Positions 2,966 through 7,282 of a DNA stretch of 64,000 nucleotides are shown here, in pieces; the first letter of the stretch is position 1; every line of letters begins with the position of its first letter. The notes beneath the pieces were generated by a model that did no database searches, was not told the origin of the DNA, and saw only the letters and a list, made by a program, of their open reading frames with translations. The position numbers and the translations under genes are program-made. The DNA comes from Vogesella urethralis (GTDB taxonomy: Bacteria; Pseudomonadota; Gammaproteobacteria; Burkholderiales; Chromobacteriaceae): assembly GCF_007644045.2 (NCBI RefSeq), contig NZ_VMDW02000058.1:1-64000 (forward strand), given 5' to 3'.

Positions 2966-3201
2966 ACTCGGTATAGCACCGCGTAGCGGCGTGCGATTAG
3001 ACACATTTCTAATTGCATGAATGAACTGGGAGAGTCGCGCAGATTTTTGGCGCTATACACAAGCAGGAAAGACGCAATAAGGAATACGTACCTGGGGCGC
3101 CAACCTCTTCCACATCACATCATGCATGGGGTGAGAGGCGCGCCAACGCCTTCACCGCTCTGGAGCAGTGCTCCGACCTTCCGCCAGAGGGTAGTTCTGT
3201 G

Positions 3202-3296
3202 GCGCCGTATGCTCGTAATGGAGCTTGTACGGTGCGAGGGGGAGGCAGGGGACTAATACCGGCTTACGCCGGCGTAACCCCTCTGCTTTATCCCAT
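3202..3296 (+). ncRNA. Group II intron domains V and VI
   Basis: Domain V spans 3202-3235 and has the canonical 34-nt geometry. Positions 1-9 pair with 26-34 (GCGCCGT with ACGGTGC at the base), there is a two-base bulge (TT, 3225-3226), and an upper stem GCTC/GAGC carries a short loop. The catalytic triad is CGC, a known variant of AGC. Domain VI (3240-3296) has a GC-rich inner hairpin (CCGGC TTAC GCCGG) and an outer stem of G-rich and C-rich arms. It ends in CCCAT, a plausible 3' splice site, with an adenosine 7 nt from the end that could be the branch point. The domain V match is strong; the domain VI pairing is approximate. Confidence 0.75.
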
Positions 3297-3327
3297 GGCT
3301 GCCGAGTGCCCAACTCGGCGACAACTG
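3297..3327 (+). other. Candidate circularised exon between 3' and 5' splice sites
   Basis: This 31-nt segment lies between the domain VI end (CCCAT, 3296) and the GTGCG intron start (3328). It contains a perfect 7-bp hairpin, GCCGAGT (3301-3307) with ACTCGGC (3313-3319) and a GCCCA loop. In a CP group II ribozyme back-splicing would release exactly this segment as a small circular RNA. The boundaries are inferred from splice-site consensus and could shift by a few bases. Confidence 0.5.
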
Positions 3328-4120
3328 GTGCGAACACGAAACGGGCCTGGGGAGCAAATGTCCCAGAGTCCCTGACCAATTGAAAATCGGGTGTAAGTCC
3401 CGACGACGGGGACGCGGGAAAGCCGCGTAACGTCTGCCAGACAGGATGGCTGCGTAATCGCCGGTAGTGATGCCGGCCTCGCCAGGATGACCCAAGTGGG
3501 TCAGACCTGGCGGGCGAGCGTGTGGTGAACCAGGGTCGCGCCTGGGAAGCTGCAAGCCGCGCTGAGAGCTTAAACCTGTAACCGCGCCCGCAAGGGTGCA
3601 GTCTGGAAAGTGCAGAAGCCATATAGGGCCTGAAGTGCCTGCTGATTGGTGGAAGCTCTATGGGTAACGATGGATTGAAAAGTAAGCGAGGGGCTTTTCC
3701 CGGTTCGCCCCGCTGAAATACGGTAACCAGCCCGTTTCTATTGCCATAGAGTGAGCCAGTGGCGTTCCTGCATGAACGTGAGAATTTGGTCTAAGTGGTG
3801 CGAAATGCTCTCTTGCGGTCGGTGTGGTGGCACATACCGGCACGGAAGTAACGACTCTGACAAGTCGCATAGAGAGTATGAGCGAGGCTTTTCGATGATG
3901 ACCCTTGACCGAAAGCCAGGGCGAGTTGTGAAGCTGACAGAACGAAGAGAGTAGCGTGATGATGAAAAAGGCAGCAACGTTGGCGCGTTGCGAGCTGACC
4001 TTTAGTCTTGGCGGACGGAGGTCTCATATGTTGGGGTTAAGTGTGTCGGTGACAGCTTGCTAACCCCCAAGCAACTATCTGCAGAGCAATAAGTAGGTAG
4101 AGGCAAACCAACCACTCTGA

Positions 4121-4154
4121 ACAGGCTGCGCTGAAAATGTGCAGCCTGTTTTTC
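4121..4154 (+). terminator. Intrinsic terminator of the structured RNA
   Basis: Perfect 9-bp arms ACAGGCTGC (4121-4129) and GCAGCCTGT (4141-4149) are followed by a T tract. No plus-strand gene precedes it, so it most likely ends the transcript that carries the group II-like RNA. Confidence 0.85.
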
Positions 4155-4305
4155 CAGTTGTGACGCCAGACCGTAGCCATGTCATGTCTGTGTTCCCCCT
4201 GTTTTTTTGGGGGGCTCCGCCCCTCGCCTTGTCACCACCGCTCTAGCTCGGAGTACCTCGGCGAGCCTCCCCGAATTTGGGCTTGGCGCTGTGTTTGCCC
4301 CCTTT
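4155..4305. other. Non-coding gap left of the origin
   Basis: No gene is seen. The stretch contains a C6-T7-G6 block near 4196-4217 and a GGGGC/GCCCC hairpin next to it. These lie on the outer side of the rep gene and its origin and may be a plasmid-derived control or termination structure; nothing more can be supported. Confidence 0.4.
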
Positions 4306-4348: not shown

Positions 4349-5284
4349 TTACGTCCAGAGATGGCCATAGCCTTCCGATAGCGTAGACACCGAGCAGCCG
4401 AGTGCTTGTGCAACGGTTCTCATCGACGGTTTCCAGCCCTCGACTGAGAGCCTGGCTATGGCGTCATGAATAGCTTGCTCCCGGCGGTTGCGTTTCAATG
4501 TCGCAGTCGCTTCCGCGCCACGGCGCCCGCGTTCCGCTTGAAGCTCACGAAACTCCGCCGGGGAGAAGCGCCGCCATACATAGCGGGCCACACTGCGAGC
4601 GATACCCGCAACTTCAGCGTTGCTTAATGGAACAGGGTAGCAATTCAGGGTTTCCGCTTGCCGCCTAACGACTTCGGCCCAGAAGCGCTGGCCGTCAGGG
4701 CGCCAGTATCCTCTGACAGCACTGTAAGCCCATATTCTCAGTTTATCGAAGAGGTCGCAGTTACGTCCTACACCTGCTGGTATAGGAGCTGGCCTAGTGG
4801 ACAAGTCGGCGAACTCGGCCAGGTAGCCGAGCTCATAGGTCGGCGCGTTGGCCGGCTCCCACAGCCGCCAAGAGAGATGCAGTGGGTTTTTTGCTAATGG
4901 GCCTGTAAAGGCAAAATCTGCACCAACTTTCTCCGTGTAGGCACGCTCAATTGCTGCCAGGTAGCGCATTGGCGCTATCCGGGCCGCATCGGTTGTGCAG
5001 ACCGGTGATGACAAGGCATATCCGATATGTGCATGACCATTTGCAGGATTGATGGCGACATAGGTCGGTGGTGGTAAGCCGAAGTCTTCCCATGCCATTG
5101 CCGCACCAGGGCGGTCGATGTCGAGTATCAACCAAGCCTGATGAGCCGGTGGGTTGAGTTGTATGTATCGCTCGCCAAGTGCGGTGACCCTCGGTCGAAT
5201 ACGAGCGAAGTGTTTTTCATCGGCGCAGTATGGGCGTCGGGGGGCATGCGCTTCGATGAGCGCAGAGAGGGCGGCAGATGCCAA
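4349..5284 (-). CDS. rep: ColE2-family plasmid replication protein (replicase/primase)
   Basis: The 311-residue protein matches the ColE2 Rep/replicase layout. An N-terminal catalytic half has the segments LILDIDRPGAA (about 52-62) and NPANGHAHIGYAL (about 78-90), where ColE2-type Reps carry acidic and histidine residues. A PriCT-like helical segment follows (about 195-245), then a basic C-terminal helix-turn-helix (about 275-308) that would bind the origin. ColE2 Rep both binds the origin and makes the short RNA primer. The start is taken as TTG at 5284 with GGAG six bases upstream; no ATG gives the full N-terminus. A likely origin lies directly downstream. The island therefore includes an integrated plasmid or a plasmid-derived replication module. 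Confidence 0.85.
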   Translation of the reverse strand: MASAALSALIEAHAPRRPYCADEKHFARIRPRVTALGERYIQLNPPAHQAWLILDIDRPGAAMAWEDFGLPPPTYVAINPANGHAHIGYALSSPVCTTDAARIAPMRYLAAIERAYTEKVGADFAFTGPLAKNPLHLSWRLWEPANAPTYELGYLAEFADLSTRPAPIPAGVGRNCDLFDKLRIWAYSAVRGYWRPDGQRFWAEVVRRQAETLNCYPVPLSNAEVAGIARSVARYVWRRFSPAEFRELQAERGRRGAEATATLKRNRREQAIHDAIARLSVEGWKPSMRTVAQALGCSVSTLSEGYGHLWT

Positions 5285-5377
5285 GGCACGCTCCAGTCAA
5301 GGGCGTGCCGCATGCAGCAATCAATGTTGTCCTCGGTATAGTCGGTATGCCCTTACGCTGCAGACGGCGCGGGGTAG

Positions 5378-5581
5378 TTAGTTAAGTGTGGCTGCTGTGT
5401 TGGTGCTGAGCGATGCAATCAATAGCTCGATGTCACTACGTCGCCATAGCGATACTCGTGGTCCGAGCTTGACTGGTGCAGGGAAACGGCCTTTTTTGAT
5501 GCCGTCGTACCACGTCGCACGCGAGACTGGGATAATTGCCAGCACTTCAGGCAGGCGCAGGAAAGAATCGGTTGTAGTCAT
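5378..5581 (-). CDS. alpA: AlpA-family phage/island transcriptional regulator
   Basis: This small DNA-binding protein (67 residues) is of the AlpA/excisionase type, which in P4-like elements activates integrase expression or excision. The start MTTTDSFLRLPEVLAII, the core SRATWYDGIKKGRFPAPVKL and the segment SLWRRSDIELLI are the family's signature. The ATG at 5581 gives the standard N-terminus. A GTG at 5626 with a GGAGG 12 bases upstream would add 15 residues. It sits upstream of rep on the same strand, the order seen in phage-plasmid islands. No integrase is visible in the window. Confidence 0.85.
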   Translation of the reverse strand: MTTTDSFLRLPEVLAIIPVSRATWYDGIKKGRFPAPVKLGPRVSLWRRSDIELLIASLSTNTAATLN

Positions 5582-5973
5582 TACGCATTTCCATCCCCAG
5601 AAGGTTTGCCGGAAATGTGTCCTCACAAGTCAGATATACCTCCACTGGCAAGCTGGGTAGTCCTGCCAGTGTCCGGTGGCGTCAATTGACGCTTGTGACC
5701 GTATAGGCAGTTTTGATGCTGATATTTACATTGTATTTTTCTATCAAAATGAATTTTTGATAGCCGTTTTTGGTGTGGATGCTGCACATCCATGCGGCGA
5801 TGGTTTGAACTCACTGGGCGGGTTCAGTGAGCGATACAAAGCTGGAAGATACGCTAGGGCAAACTCGGTATCACCGCGAACCACCTCAGTGCATGATTAA
5901 AGCGGGTATCCAATCGGGTACTTAAAATTGTTAATTTTATAAAATTCATAATAATCAATAGGATGTGTTTGAT
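5582..5973. other. Island/chromosome junction region without a gene
   Basis: No convincing gene is present. The stretch is AT-rich compared with both sides (notably 5690-5765 and 5915-5960) and holds an imperfect hairpin CTCACTG/CAGTGAG near 5810-5831. The switch from island genes to housekeeping xthA must lie here, but no direct repeat or tRNA fragment that would mark an attachment site was recognised. The right end should carry the xthA promoter. Confidence 0.5.
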
Positions 5974-6744
5974 ATGAAGCTTGCCACCTGGAACGTCAAC
6001 TCGCTGAAAGTGCGCCTGCCGCACGTGCTGCAATGGCTGGCCGATAACCCGGTAGAGGTGTTGTGCCTGCAGGAATTGAAGCTGGACCAGCCGGCATTTC
6101 CGCAAGCCGAGATCGAGGCCGCCGGCTACCAGGCGGTGTGGCTGGGGCAGAAAACCTATAACGGTGTGGCCATCCTGGTAAAGAACGGCTGCCAGCTGAG
6201 CGATGTGGTGACCGGCATGCCCGGCTATGAAGACGAGCAGCGCCGCGTGATTACCGCCACCGTGGACGGCGTGCGCGTGATCTGTGCCTACTTCGTCAAC
6301 GGCGAAGCGGTGGATTCGCCCAAGTACCAGTACAAGCTGGGCTGGTTGGCCGCGATGGAGCGCTACGTGGCCGCCGAGCTGCAGCAGCATACCGAGCTGG
6401 CGCTGCTGGGTGACTACAACATCGCGCCGGAAGACATCGACGTCTACGACCCGGCAGGCTGGCACGAGCAGGTACTGTGCACCACGCCGGAGCGCGACAG
6501 CTTCCGCCGCCTGCTGGGCCTGGGCCTGCACGACAGCTTCCGCCTGTTCAACCAGGAGGCCAAGCAGTACAGCTGGTGGGATTACCGCGCGATGATGTTC
6601 CGCCGCAATATGGGCGTGCGTATCGACCACATCCTGATCACCGACAGCCTGAAAGCGCGCGCCACCGCGTGTGTCATCGACAAGACGCCACGCAAGTGGG
6701 AACGCCCGTCCGACCACACGCCGGTGGTACTGACGCTGGGCTAG
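5974..6744 (+). CDS. xthA: Exodeoxyribonuclease III
   Basis: This is an AP endonuclease and 3'-5' exonuclease of base excision repair, cutting the backbone at abasic sites. The 256 residues match ExoIII length. Visible active-site motifs of the exonuclease/endonuclease/phosphatase fold are WNVNSLKVR (N8), LQELKLD (metal-binding E about 35), LLGDYNIAPEDIDVYDP (D and N), and the C-terminal RIDHILITDSL with PSDHTPVVL (catalytic histidine near residue 250). The ATG at 5974 is chosen over an upstream GTG because AGGA (5960-5963) is correctly spaced. It appears monocistronic and is the first clear core gene after the island. Confidence 0.95.
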   Translation: MKLATWNVNSLKVRLPHVLQWLADNPVEVLCLQELKLDQPAFPQAEIEAAGYQAVWLGQKTYNGVAILVKNGCQLSDVVTGMPGYEDEQRRVITATVDGVRVICAYFVNGEAVDSPKYQYKLGWLAAMERYVAAELQQHTELALLGDYNIAPEDIDVYDPAGWHEQVLCTTPERDSFRRLLGLGLHDSFRLFNQEAKQYSWWDYRAMMFRRNMGVRIDHILITDSLKARATACVIDKTPRKWERPSDHTPVVLTLG

Positions 6745-7015
6745 CGCCAAGCGGCGGGAGAGGGGGGCAAGTGGTGAAAGGTAGGCATTTTTAATGCATA
6801 TTTCATGCTTTCCACCCCCTTGATGCAGAAAGTGCTTGCAGCACAGCGACTTGGTGCGTATAACGTGCCCAGCAAGATTTCAAGCTGTCGATCCAAAGTT
6901 TCAACGTTGTTCCCCTGCACAAGCGGTACGCCATTGTTTCCAGCGGTCTCTTCTTGATGATTTCGCTCCTTAGGGCATAGCCCGATTTTTCACGTTTTTT
7001 CAAAAGGAAACCTTC
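6745..7015 (+). promoter_or_regulatory. Long leader region of the cold-shock gene
   Basis: There is no gene in these 271 bases. Cold-shock mRNAs usually carry a 150-200-nt structured 5' leader acting as a thermosensor, and the AT-rich start near 6785-6810 plus the long gap before the ATG fits that. A strong AAGGAAAC ribosome-binding site (7004-7011) precedes the start. The transcription start cannot be placed from sequence alone. Confidence 0.4.
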
Positions 7016-7219
7016 ATGGAAACCGGTACCGTTAAATGGTTCAACGACGCTAAAGGCTTTGGCTTCATCACTCCGGACGCTGGTGGCAACGACCTGTTCG
7101 CCCACTTCTCCGAAATCCAGAGCAACGGCTTCAAATCCCTGGCCGAAGGTCAGAAAGTAAGCTACGTATCTGGCATGGGCAAAAAAGGCCCGCAAGCTAC
7201 CCAGATCAAGCCGCTGTAA
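7016..7219 (+). CDS. Cold-shock domain protein (CspA family)
   Basis: This single-domain RNA/DNA chaperone melts structured RNA in the cold or during growth. The 67 residues form one OB-fold. RNP1 is KGFGFI (about 13-18) and RNP2 is DLFAHFSEI (about 26-34, with the common V of FVHF replaced by A). The N-terminus [18 protein letters not shown] is typical of the family. It is flanked by a long leader and a strong terminator, so it is expressed alone. Which Csp paralogue it represents cannot be decided. Confidence 0.97.
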
Positions 7220-7248
7220 TTTCAGCGCGATCAGGTACTGCCTGTAGC

Positions 7249-7277
7249 AAAAAAACCCCGCGTCAGCGGGGTTTTTT
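7249..7277 (+). terminator. Terminator after the cold-shock gene
   Basis: CCCCGC (7256-7261) pairs with GCGGGG (7266-7271) around a GTCA loop. A tracts precede it and six T follow, giving a strong, potentially bidirectional terminator. Confidence 0.95.
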
Positions 7278-7282
7278 CATGG

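Follow-up and report, generated by a model that had tools for sequence, protein, structure and literature searches.

The window, by which we mean the whole 64,000-nucleotide stretch of Vogesella urethralis DNA analysed here, contains a group II intron-like domain V that precedes, rather than follows, sequence resembling domain I, which raises the question of whether these parts form a single permuted ribozyme and of which gene, if any, serves it. We put a probability of roughly 0.85 on the reading that positions 3094-4154 encode a circularly permuted (CP) group II ribozyme with a partner gene, acpG, alongside. CP group II ribozymes were described by Roth et al. 2021 (PMC8637638), with examples in Polaromonas pPNAP05, Thermus pTT8 and Comamonas testosteroni KF-1; that study comprises about 290 sequences, and the class had no known role at its first description. 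The open PMC literature on this class, on AcpG and on TTHC007 yielded PMC8637638 as the primary source, and later work may exist elsewhere. The original prediction for this locus had proposed such a ribozyme with an unexplained host function, which holds for all of the class as published, and had missed both acpG and the hairpins upstream of domain V.

Architecture of the permuted element

The RNA is encoded on the plus strand in the order domains V and VI (D5-D6), a 31-nt segment (3297-3327), GUGCG and domains I to IV (D1-D4), and the ORFs within the element are short ones only. D5-D6 matches Rfam RF00029 over 3200-3296 (36.3 bits, E 4.1e-5 in a 1.5-kb search with permissive filters; the gathering score is 40). 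At gathering scores, Rfam reports across the whole window a cspA thermoregulator RNA (RF01766, 84.4 bits, 6850-7280) and a tRNA alone, leaving the D5-D6 region unreported. The assignment of D5 to 3202-3235 rests on RF00029, the predicted fold and compensatory stem changes, and its alignment columns are those of the pPNAP05 domain. Positions 3202-3210 pair with 3227-3235, the U3210-G3227 pair included, and the CGC triad (3203-3205) is separated by five pairs (3206-3210 with 3227-3231) from a UU bulge of the UN type (3225-3226). The 34-nt domain V originally described, with its CGC triad and two-base bulge, is therefore present in sequence, fold and RF00029 match. The accompanying description of its geometry as perfect proves nearly but not fully right, since triad, bulge and pairing hold while distally the domain forms a 4-bp stem capped by the hexaloop GUAAUG (3215-3220) instead of a 5-bp stem with a GNRA tetraloop. 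A D5 descriptor with an obligatory GNRA loop missed the window D5 and returned a single chance match.

Domain VI occupies 3238-3296, folding as the anticipated hairpin over 3238-3294 and ending in AU at the 3' splice site (3296/3297). The fold leaves one bulged A, A3290, which is the predicted branch point, seven nucleotides before the 3' end, and the branch region TTTATCYCRT is found in 5/5 members of the window clade. The minimum free energy (MFE) of 3200-3297, covering D5-D6, is -51.4 kcal/mol (z -5.0), and none of 200 shuffles folded as low.

The 31-nt segment at 3297-3327, followed by GTGCG at 3328, is exactly as first reported. It contains a hairpin, measures 26-31 nt across the five clade members, and separates splice sites that stand in reversed order, the short linker between them falling inside the published range. 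GUGCG at the 5' splice site opens domain I (3328-3791), which comprises covarying consensus helices 1-23 and whose end was mapped from alignment columns. Within a D1 hairpin loop (3700-3705), the delta nucleotide C3700 precedes EBS1 (CGGTT, 3701-3705), and both can pair with the linker edges: EBS1 CGGUU pairs with IBS1 AACUG (AACTG in the DNA, 3323-3327) at 5/5 positions in the window, L002 and L016 and at 4/5 in L003 and L012, and the C preceding EBS1 can pair with the first linker base, a G, in 5/5 members. The pPNAP05 counterpart is AAUCUC with GAGAUU. Among 28 scanned loci of the GGGCG type, reading identified a perfect 6-nt match in a recognisable EBS1 loop in 14, and 7 were without a perfect match in the scanned stretch; at the sequence level, EBS1-IBS1 complementarity is evident in the window clade, the GGGCG-type loci having been checked in part.

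From the bulged A3290, the two splice sites, IBS1-EBS1 and delta, we predict that the element yields a branched RNA and a 31-nt circle. A3290 would attack the 5' splice site (3327/3328), the freed 3' end at 3327 would then attack the 3' splice site (3296/3297), and the expected products would be an RNA circle of the 31 linker nucleotides (3297-3327) and a branched RNA remaining in the transcript. We infer catalysis by the window RNA by analogy with published relatives assayed in vitro, CP RNAs of five species having given circles or the expected products in the assays described in PMC8637638.

Short hairpins flank the ribozyme on both sides. Two P1-like 5' hairpins with the loop CGCCAA (copy 1 at 3094-3107, conserved in 5/5 clade members; copy 2 at 3137-3150, also conserved) are complementary to UUGGCG, which is held in the loops of domain IV-like hairpins at 3974-3991 and 4005-4016, and a P2-like hairpin upstream of D5 (3162-3174) has a stem compensated across the five members. 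Given these conserved 5' hairpins, the element begins earlier than position 3128, where its start had been placed. Under a loop-pair rule of a 4-bp stem, a 6-nt loop and at most one G-U, 3974-3991 alone passes on the 3' side in the window, the stem of 4005-4016 being 3 bp. By the same comparison, complementary 5'-3' loop pairs occur in 5/5 window-clade members and in 14/25 members overall (none in 11/25), against a mean of 0.77 and a maximum of 4/25 in composition-preserving shuffles, and in L036, L017, L018 and pTT8 the loop sequences differ and the pairing is kept. The transcript would be pictured as folding in the order D5-D6-linker-D1-D2-D3-D4, with its 5' and 3' ends joined by one or two hairpin-loop contacts.

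A stem-loop with a T run at 4121-4154 is a likely transcription terminator. The earlier call of a terminator here holds by eye and in the MFE fold, although a simple consensus terminator scan does not list it, and a promoter scan found no sigma-70 promoter ahead of the RNA. Between acpG and the ribozyme (3020-3058), the motifs AATGAACTGGGA (3020-3031) and CGCTATAC (3051-3058) are identical in the window, L002, L003 and L012; in L016, TGAACTGGGA replaces AATGAACTGGGA and the second motif is changed. These motifs are possibly a shared promoter or operator.

Relatives and class membership

Four of 101 genomes, comprising the window's own and its relatives, were matched by blastn: the window itself, G057 (78% over query 9-1251), G064 (72% over 134-951) and G071, whose 28-base match was judged to be chance. 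A Zoogloea MAG (L012) with a full-length RNA was added by an AcpG scan, and G216 (L016) came from the first covariance model. Blastn of 3000-4250 against plasmids and phages gave no match, and the exact 5' splice-site pattern was absent from the viral contig set. All four relatives (L002, L003, L012 and L016) present the permuted order D5-D6-linker-GUGCG-D1. The proposal of a CP group II ribozyme is thus supported by homologues in four other genomes, as well as by the published pPNAP05 and pTT8 elements with matching geometry. Furthermore, the suggestion that 3202-3296 and 3328-4100 might belong to two unrelated fragments is countered by these homologues, which keep D5-D6, linker and D1-D3 as one permuted unit.

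RNAalifold, applied to the five-member alignment of 3328-3944, predicted 175 pairs in D1-D3, of which 81 show compensatory changes on both sides, with 95.8% of cells paired. None of 500 shuffles matched any of five measures of this covariation, and slid versions of the structure gave 8-14 both-side pairs, a comparison that favours the predicted structure because it was derived from the tested alignment. Following the order of the consensus helices, helices 24-27 (3799-3884) are the putative domain II and helix 28 (3886-3935) the putative domain III. The covariance check originally proposed for domain I gave a divided answer, in that the Rfam D1-D4 models have no match in the domain I-III part up to E 10 while covariation across D1-D3 is strong in the five-member alignment. 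The missing Rfam match is not diagnostic, because the record of pTT8, a published CP member, likewise has no Rfam group II match at E 0.01; model R2 matches the pTT8 CP RNA with 28.6 bits (E 4.7e-6).

The window RNA resembles published CP group II ribozymes in its D5-D6-linker-D1-D4 order, its lack of an internal ORF, the UN bulge, the bulged A in D6, the short hairpin-bearing linker, EBS1-IBS1 and delta, the end-to-end loop contact, the acpG neighbour and its plasmid-type surroundings. The published consensus, as given in PMC8637638, has the 5' splice site GGGCG, the D5 triad AGC and a linker of 15-86 nt, with one P1 contact, between the P1 loop and a 3'-end segment, and a pseudoknot between P2 and the D2 loop. 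Compared with these RNAs, the window has GUGCG instead of GGGCG and CGC instead of AGC (both in 5/5 clade members), a long D6, and two same-loop 5' hairpins in place of one P1 contact. Since GGGCG and AGC figure in that source as resemblance and not as a membership rule, and the domain order, linker, bulge, EBS1-IBS1, end contact and lack of an internal ORF agree with the class, we keep the window RNA in it: this is a new member of a known, rare class, within a GUGCG and CGC subclade. Like canonical bacterial group II introns, it has a D5-D6 fold, a GUGCG start, an AU end and a branch A seven nucleotides from the 3' end; unlike them, it has a permuted order, splice sites that are reversed and internal, and no intron-encoded protein. 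The CGC triad is a feature of IIC introns, and the canonical-like GUGCG and CGC make the window clade a comparison point for the divergence of permuted ribozymes from ordinary introns. We know of no assays on members of the GUGCG/CGC clade.

AcpG and its association with CP ribozymes

The acpG gene lies on the minus strand at 2264-2968, divergent from the ribozyme, and encodes a protein of about 234 aa (ATG at 2965; a longer ORF starts at GTG 3004). By sequence comparison this ORF is AcpG, of the family tied to CP RNAs in PMC8637638. In tblastn searches of the fetched loci, the protein neighbouring the pPNAP05 CP RNA was matched at E 1.5e-8 with the window query and 4.6e-9 with the L002 query. 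A 43-protein AcpG profile lacking the pTT8 protein recovers that protein at E 8.9e-18 among 104 plasmid ORFs (next ORF, 0.44), and for the pPNAP05 protein the corresponding leave-out profile gives E 2.1e-58 (88 ORFs). When single sequences are compared, matches to the pTT8 protein are weak, at E 0.009 for the L012 query and 0.045 in a pairwise comparison. The pTT8 protein, TTH_RS11295 (259 aa), is presumably TTHC007, judging by its length and position. The window protein thus resembles the AcpG/TTHC007 family in length, divergent position, leave-out profile matches and the motif P-x-[FY]-[SAG]-G-V-[RW]-x-Q, common to it and the Thermus and Polaromonas proteins, although its identity to the pTT8 and pPNAP05 proteins is about 22-24% only.

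AcpG had no match in Pfam, NCBIfam, PHROGs or PADLOC, its sole match among solved structures had an E-value of 1.8, and its structure model, built from 4 sequences, is poor (pLDDT 51). Profile and fold tests against three intron-encoded proteins and one further reverse transcriptase protein did not support AcpG as a maturase relative, a weak test because one of these four, L133, does not look intron-encoded. A phylogeny of 44 AcpG proteins groups the five GUGCG-type members in a single clade (support 0.999) that also includes L037 and the protein from Deefgea, which lacks the RNA; among the remaining loci whose splice site could be read, two have the GUGUGCG type and all others the GGGCG type, so that RNA type follows AcpG clade. 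The shared AcpG would argue for one permutation event over several. Two loci, L017 and L018 (G422 and G313), represent a third CP type with a D5 loop GAAA, an AU bulge, a GUGUGCG start and a diverged AcpG, their D5 being closer to that of canonical introns. G216 carries two CP types, GGGCG (L069, on a 45,416-base contig) and GUGCG (L016, on the largest contig), each with its own acpG.

The association was surveyed in an identical set of 399 genomes of the order for AcpG and for the RNA models R1 and R2. The AcpG profile matched 30 genomes. Model R1 matched 13 at E 0.01, which on reading the sequences comprised 10 CP genomes, one canonical intron end and two chance matches, and model R2 matched 28 (22 strong and 6 weak, the score line between the two having been drawn after the lists were seen). 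The 6 weak R2 rows, of 32 in the order set, were read as chance; of the 14 R1 rows, L019 proved to be D5-D6 of a canonical intron and L024 and L025 were also dropped on sequence, and the RNA match L060 of G215 was judged to be chance. R1 and R2 together gave 30 CP places in 25 genomes, and at every place AcpG was encoded within 2 kb on that contig, divergently in 24 cases and, in the other 6, downstream of the RNA in the same orientation. All 25 CP genomes are among the 30 AcpG genomes, for which the hypergeometric value of 4.5e-35 is not a true probability because the order genomes are related.

A class survey of 312 genomes, which included at least 3 order members, found AcpG in 4 genomes, the window's included, and 4 strong R2 places in the other three, all divergent neighbours of AcpG; nine genomes were matched in this set, and five weak ones were dropped on sequence reading. 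Overall, acpG lies within 2 kb of 34/34 confident CP places, distributed over 28 genomes. R2 was trained on 16 sequences, 10 of them taken from AcpG loci, so a fairer count is restricted to places that contributed to neither R1 nor R2; of these, acpG adjoins 13/13 in the order and 4/4 in the class (17/17). A CP RNA too diverged for R1 and R2 could be without acpG, and PMC8637638 reports some CP RNAs without acpG nearby or anywhere in the genome. An AcpG scan of other contigs gave 3 loci in the genome contig set and none in the viral contig set.

Nine plasmid records matched the RNA of pPNAP05. In the seven records covered by the acpG count (pPNAP05 included, H7 and H10 outside), AcpG is on the same record in 7/7 and next to the RNA in 6; in Thiothrix it sits at a different plasmid location, adjacent to another GGGCG-type site. 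On Pandoraea oxalativorans pPO70-4 (L106:4529-6090), an IS256 (4700-5965) is situated inside the CP RNA region, between RNA and AcpG and with R2 matches on both sides, and from its sequence this copy of the RNA looks interrupted by the insertion.

Five of the 30 AcpG genomes lack a confident CP place (G370, G215, G185, G254 and G403). In G370 and G215 acpG is near a contig end, in G185 it is a fragment with an internal stop, and G254 (L068) has a weak RNA match of 31.6 bits at the expected place. The fifth, Deefgea rivuli (L011:9850-9960), has an intact acpG and has lost the ribozyme, the intergenic region leading straight into a terminator-like hairpin, and R1 and R2 found no RNA around its acpG or genome-wide. 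With a dN/dS of 0.084 against L003, and with its own lineage showing 9.5 synonymous against 2.5 nonsynonymous changes, this acpG sequence looks to be under constraint. An AcpG-like protein of 388 aa is also encoded on the alphaproteobacterial Gluconobacter plasmid pSJF2-c (L007:4043-5209), where sequence profiles gave no RNA match.

Reverse transcriptase and maturase domains were counted in 29 CP-bearing genomes, namely the 25 above with G057, G601, G707 and G730. GIIM is matched in 5/29 (4 over the cut-off) and in none of the remaining 24, and RVT_1 in 16/29 (15 over the cut-off) and in none of the other 13. The window genome has no GIIM domain, and its sole RVT_1 match, on another contig (L028:337-1914, minus strand), has the defence reverse transcriptase Drt8 as its best match; the element was thus rightly described as having no reverse transcriptase. 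From the GIIM and RVT_1 counts, we infer that a reverse TRANSCRIPTASE is not needed by CP loci.

Possible roles of AcpG and genomic setting

These observations suggest that AcpG is a dedicated, reverse transcriptase-independent partner of the ribozyme. In our preferred, though uncertain, reading, AcpG would bind the ribozyme and aid its folding, replacing the intron-encoded maturase. Speaking against a folding partner are the lack of homology of AcpG to known families or intron proteins, its poor structure model and the RNA-less Deefgea acpG. A stronger version, in which CP ribozymes are obligate two-component systems, the reverse transcriptase-independent RNA always occurring with AcpG, which would have taken the place of the maturase as a splicing cofactor of a new, RNA-binding kind, is a tentative proposal about which we are more doubtful than confident; were it true, the CP RNAs reported without acpG in 2021 would reflect the sensitivity limit of that protein search. 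Because CP RNAs are coupled almost strictly to a single protein family, and most of their hosts show no group II maturase, the question of CP ribozyme function becomes a two-gene experiment.

Alternative explanations concern both the RNA and its link to AcpG. Group II introns are often truncated, and the locus might comprise two unrelated canonical fragments that happen to adjoin, the end of an intron that lost its 5' part (D5-D6) preceding the start of another that lost its 3' part (D1-D3). The absence of Rfam D1-D4 matches agrees with this explanation, but it is exceedingly improbable given that five divergent genomes preserve the junction (linkers of 26-31 nt), that the downstream EBS1 and delta can pair with the two edges of a single linker, that the loops at the two ends of the element are complementary, and that every confident member has an acpG beside it. 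An improbable but less remote case is that the CP ribozyme is structurally intact and no longer transcribed or active in the window strain. No sigma-70 promoter was found, the Pandoraea member carries IS256 inside its RNA region, Deefgea lost the RNA, and in vivo processing went unseen in PMC8637638, where Polaromonas showed CP transcripts and not processed RNA; the splice elements and covarying helices of the window are nevertheless all intact.

As to the link with AcpG, the coupling could reflect only a shared plasmid-derived module, in which AcpG has a job of its own (e.g. regulation or replication) and makes no RNA contact. In several records, CP loci are indeed plasmid-borne or have replication genes a few kb away, and Deefgea acpG has been kept under apparent constraint without the RNA. 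Still, the 34/34 coupling in just two arrangements persists though the neighbouring genes vary, and RNA type goes with the AcpG clade, so we consider a module of this kind rather unlikely. The divergent or co-directional two-part layout, often plasmid-borne, and the presence of toxin-antitoxin genes a few kb away in two records would also fit a toxin-antitoxin-like or defence pair, with a harmful AcpG restrained by the RNA or its circle. AcpG has no PADLOC match, however, and Deefgea rivuli keeps an intact, apparently constrained acpG with no RNA-model match, which makes a lethal toxin less likely and also counts slightly against AcpG as a cofactor only, provided the RNA was not lost recently; because of Deefgea, we judge AcpG very unlikely to be a toxin.

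The neighbouring plasmid replication gene noted earlier is real: a plasmid-type replicase (PF03090, E 3e-39) lies outside the ribozyme at 4349-5284 on the minus strand, convergent with it, and L002 has a similar neighbour. The element, adjoining the replicase and an AlpA-like gene, is located between type I restriction genes (with the contig edge at window position 1) and a gene that we take to be xthA. In 12/12 congeners, homology to 5300-6400 begins only at the start of xthA, a boundary that non-coding divergence could also produce by ending local alignments. In the Zoogloea MAG (L012:10810-14019), a long CRISPR array with RF01317 repeats directly follows acpG, and Chromobacterium alkanivorans carries a matching block of acpG, RNA and replicase.
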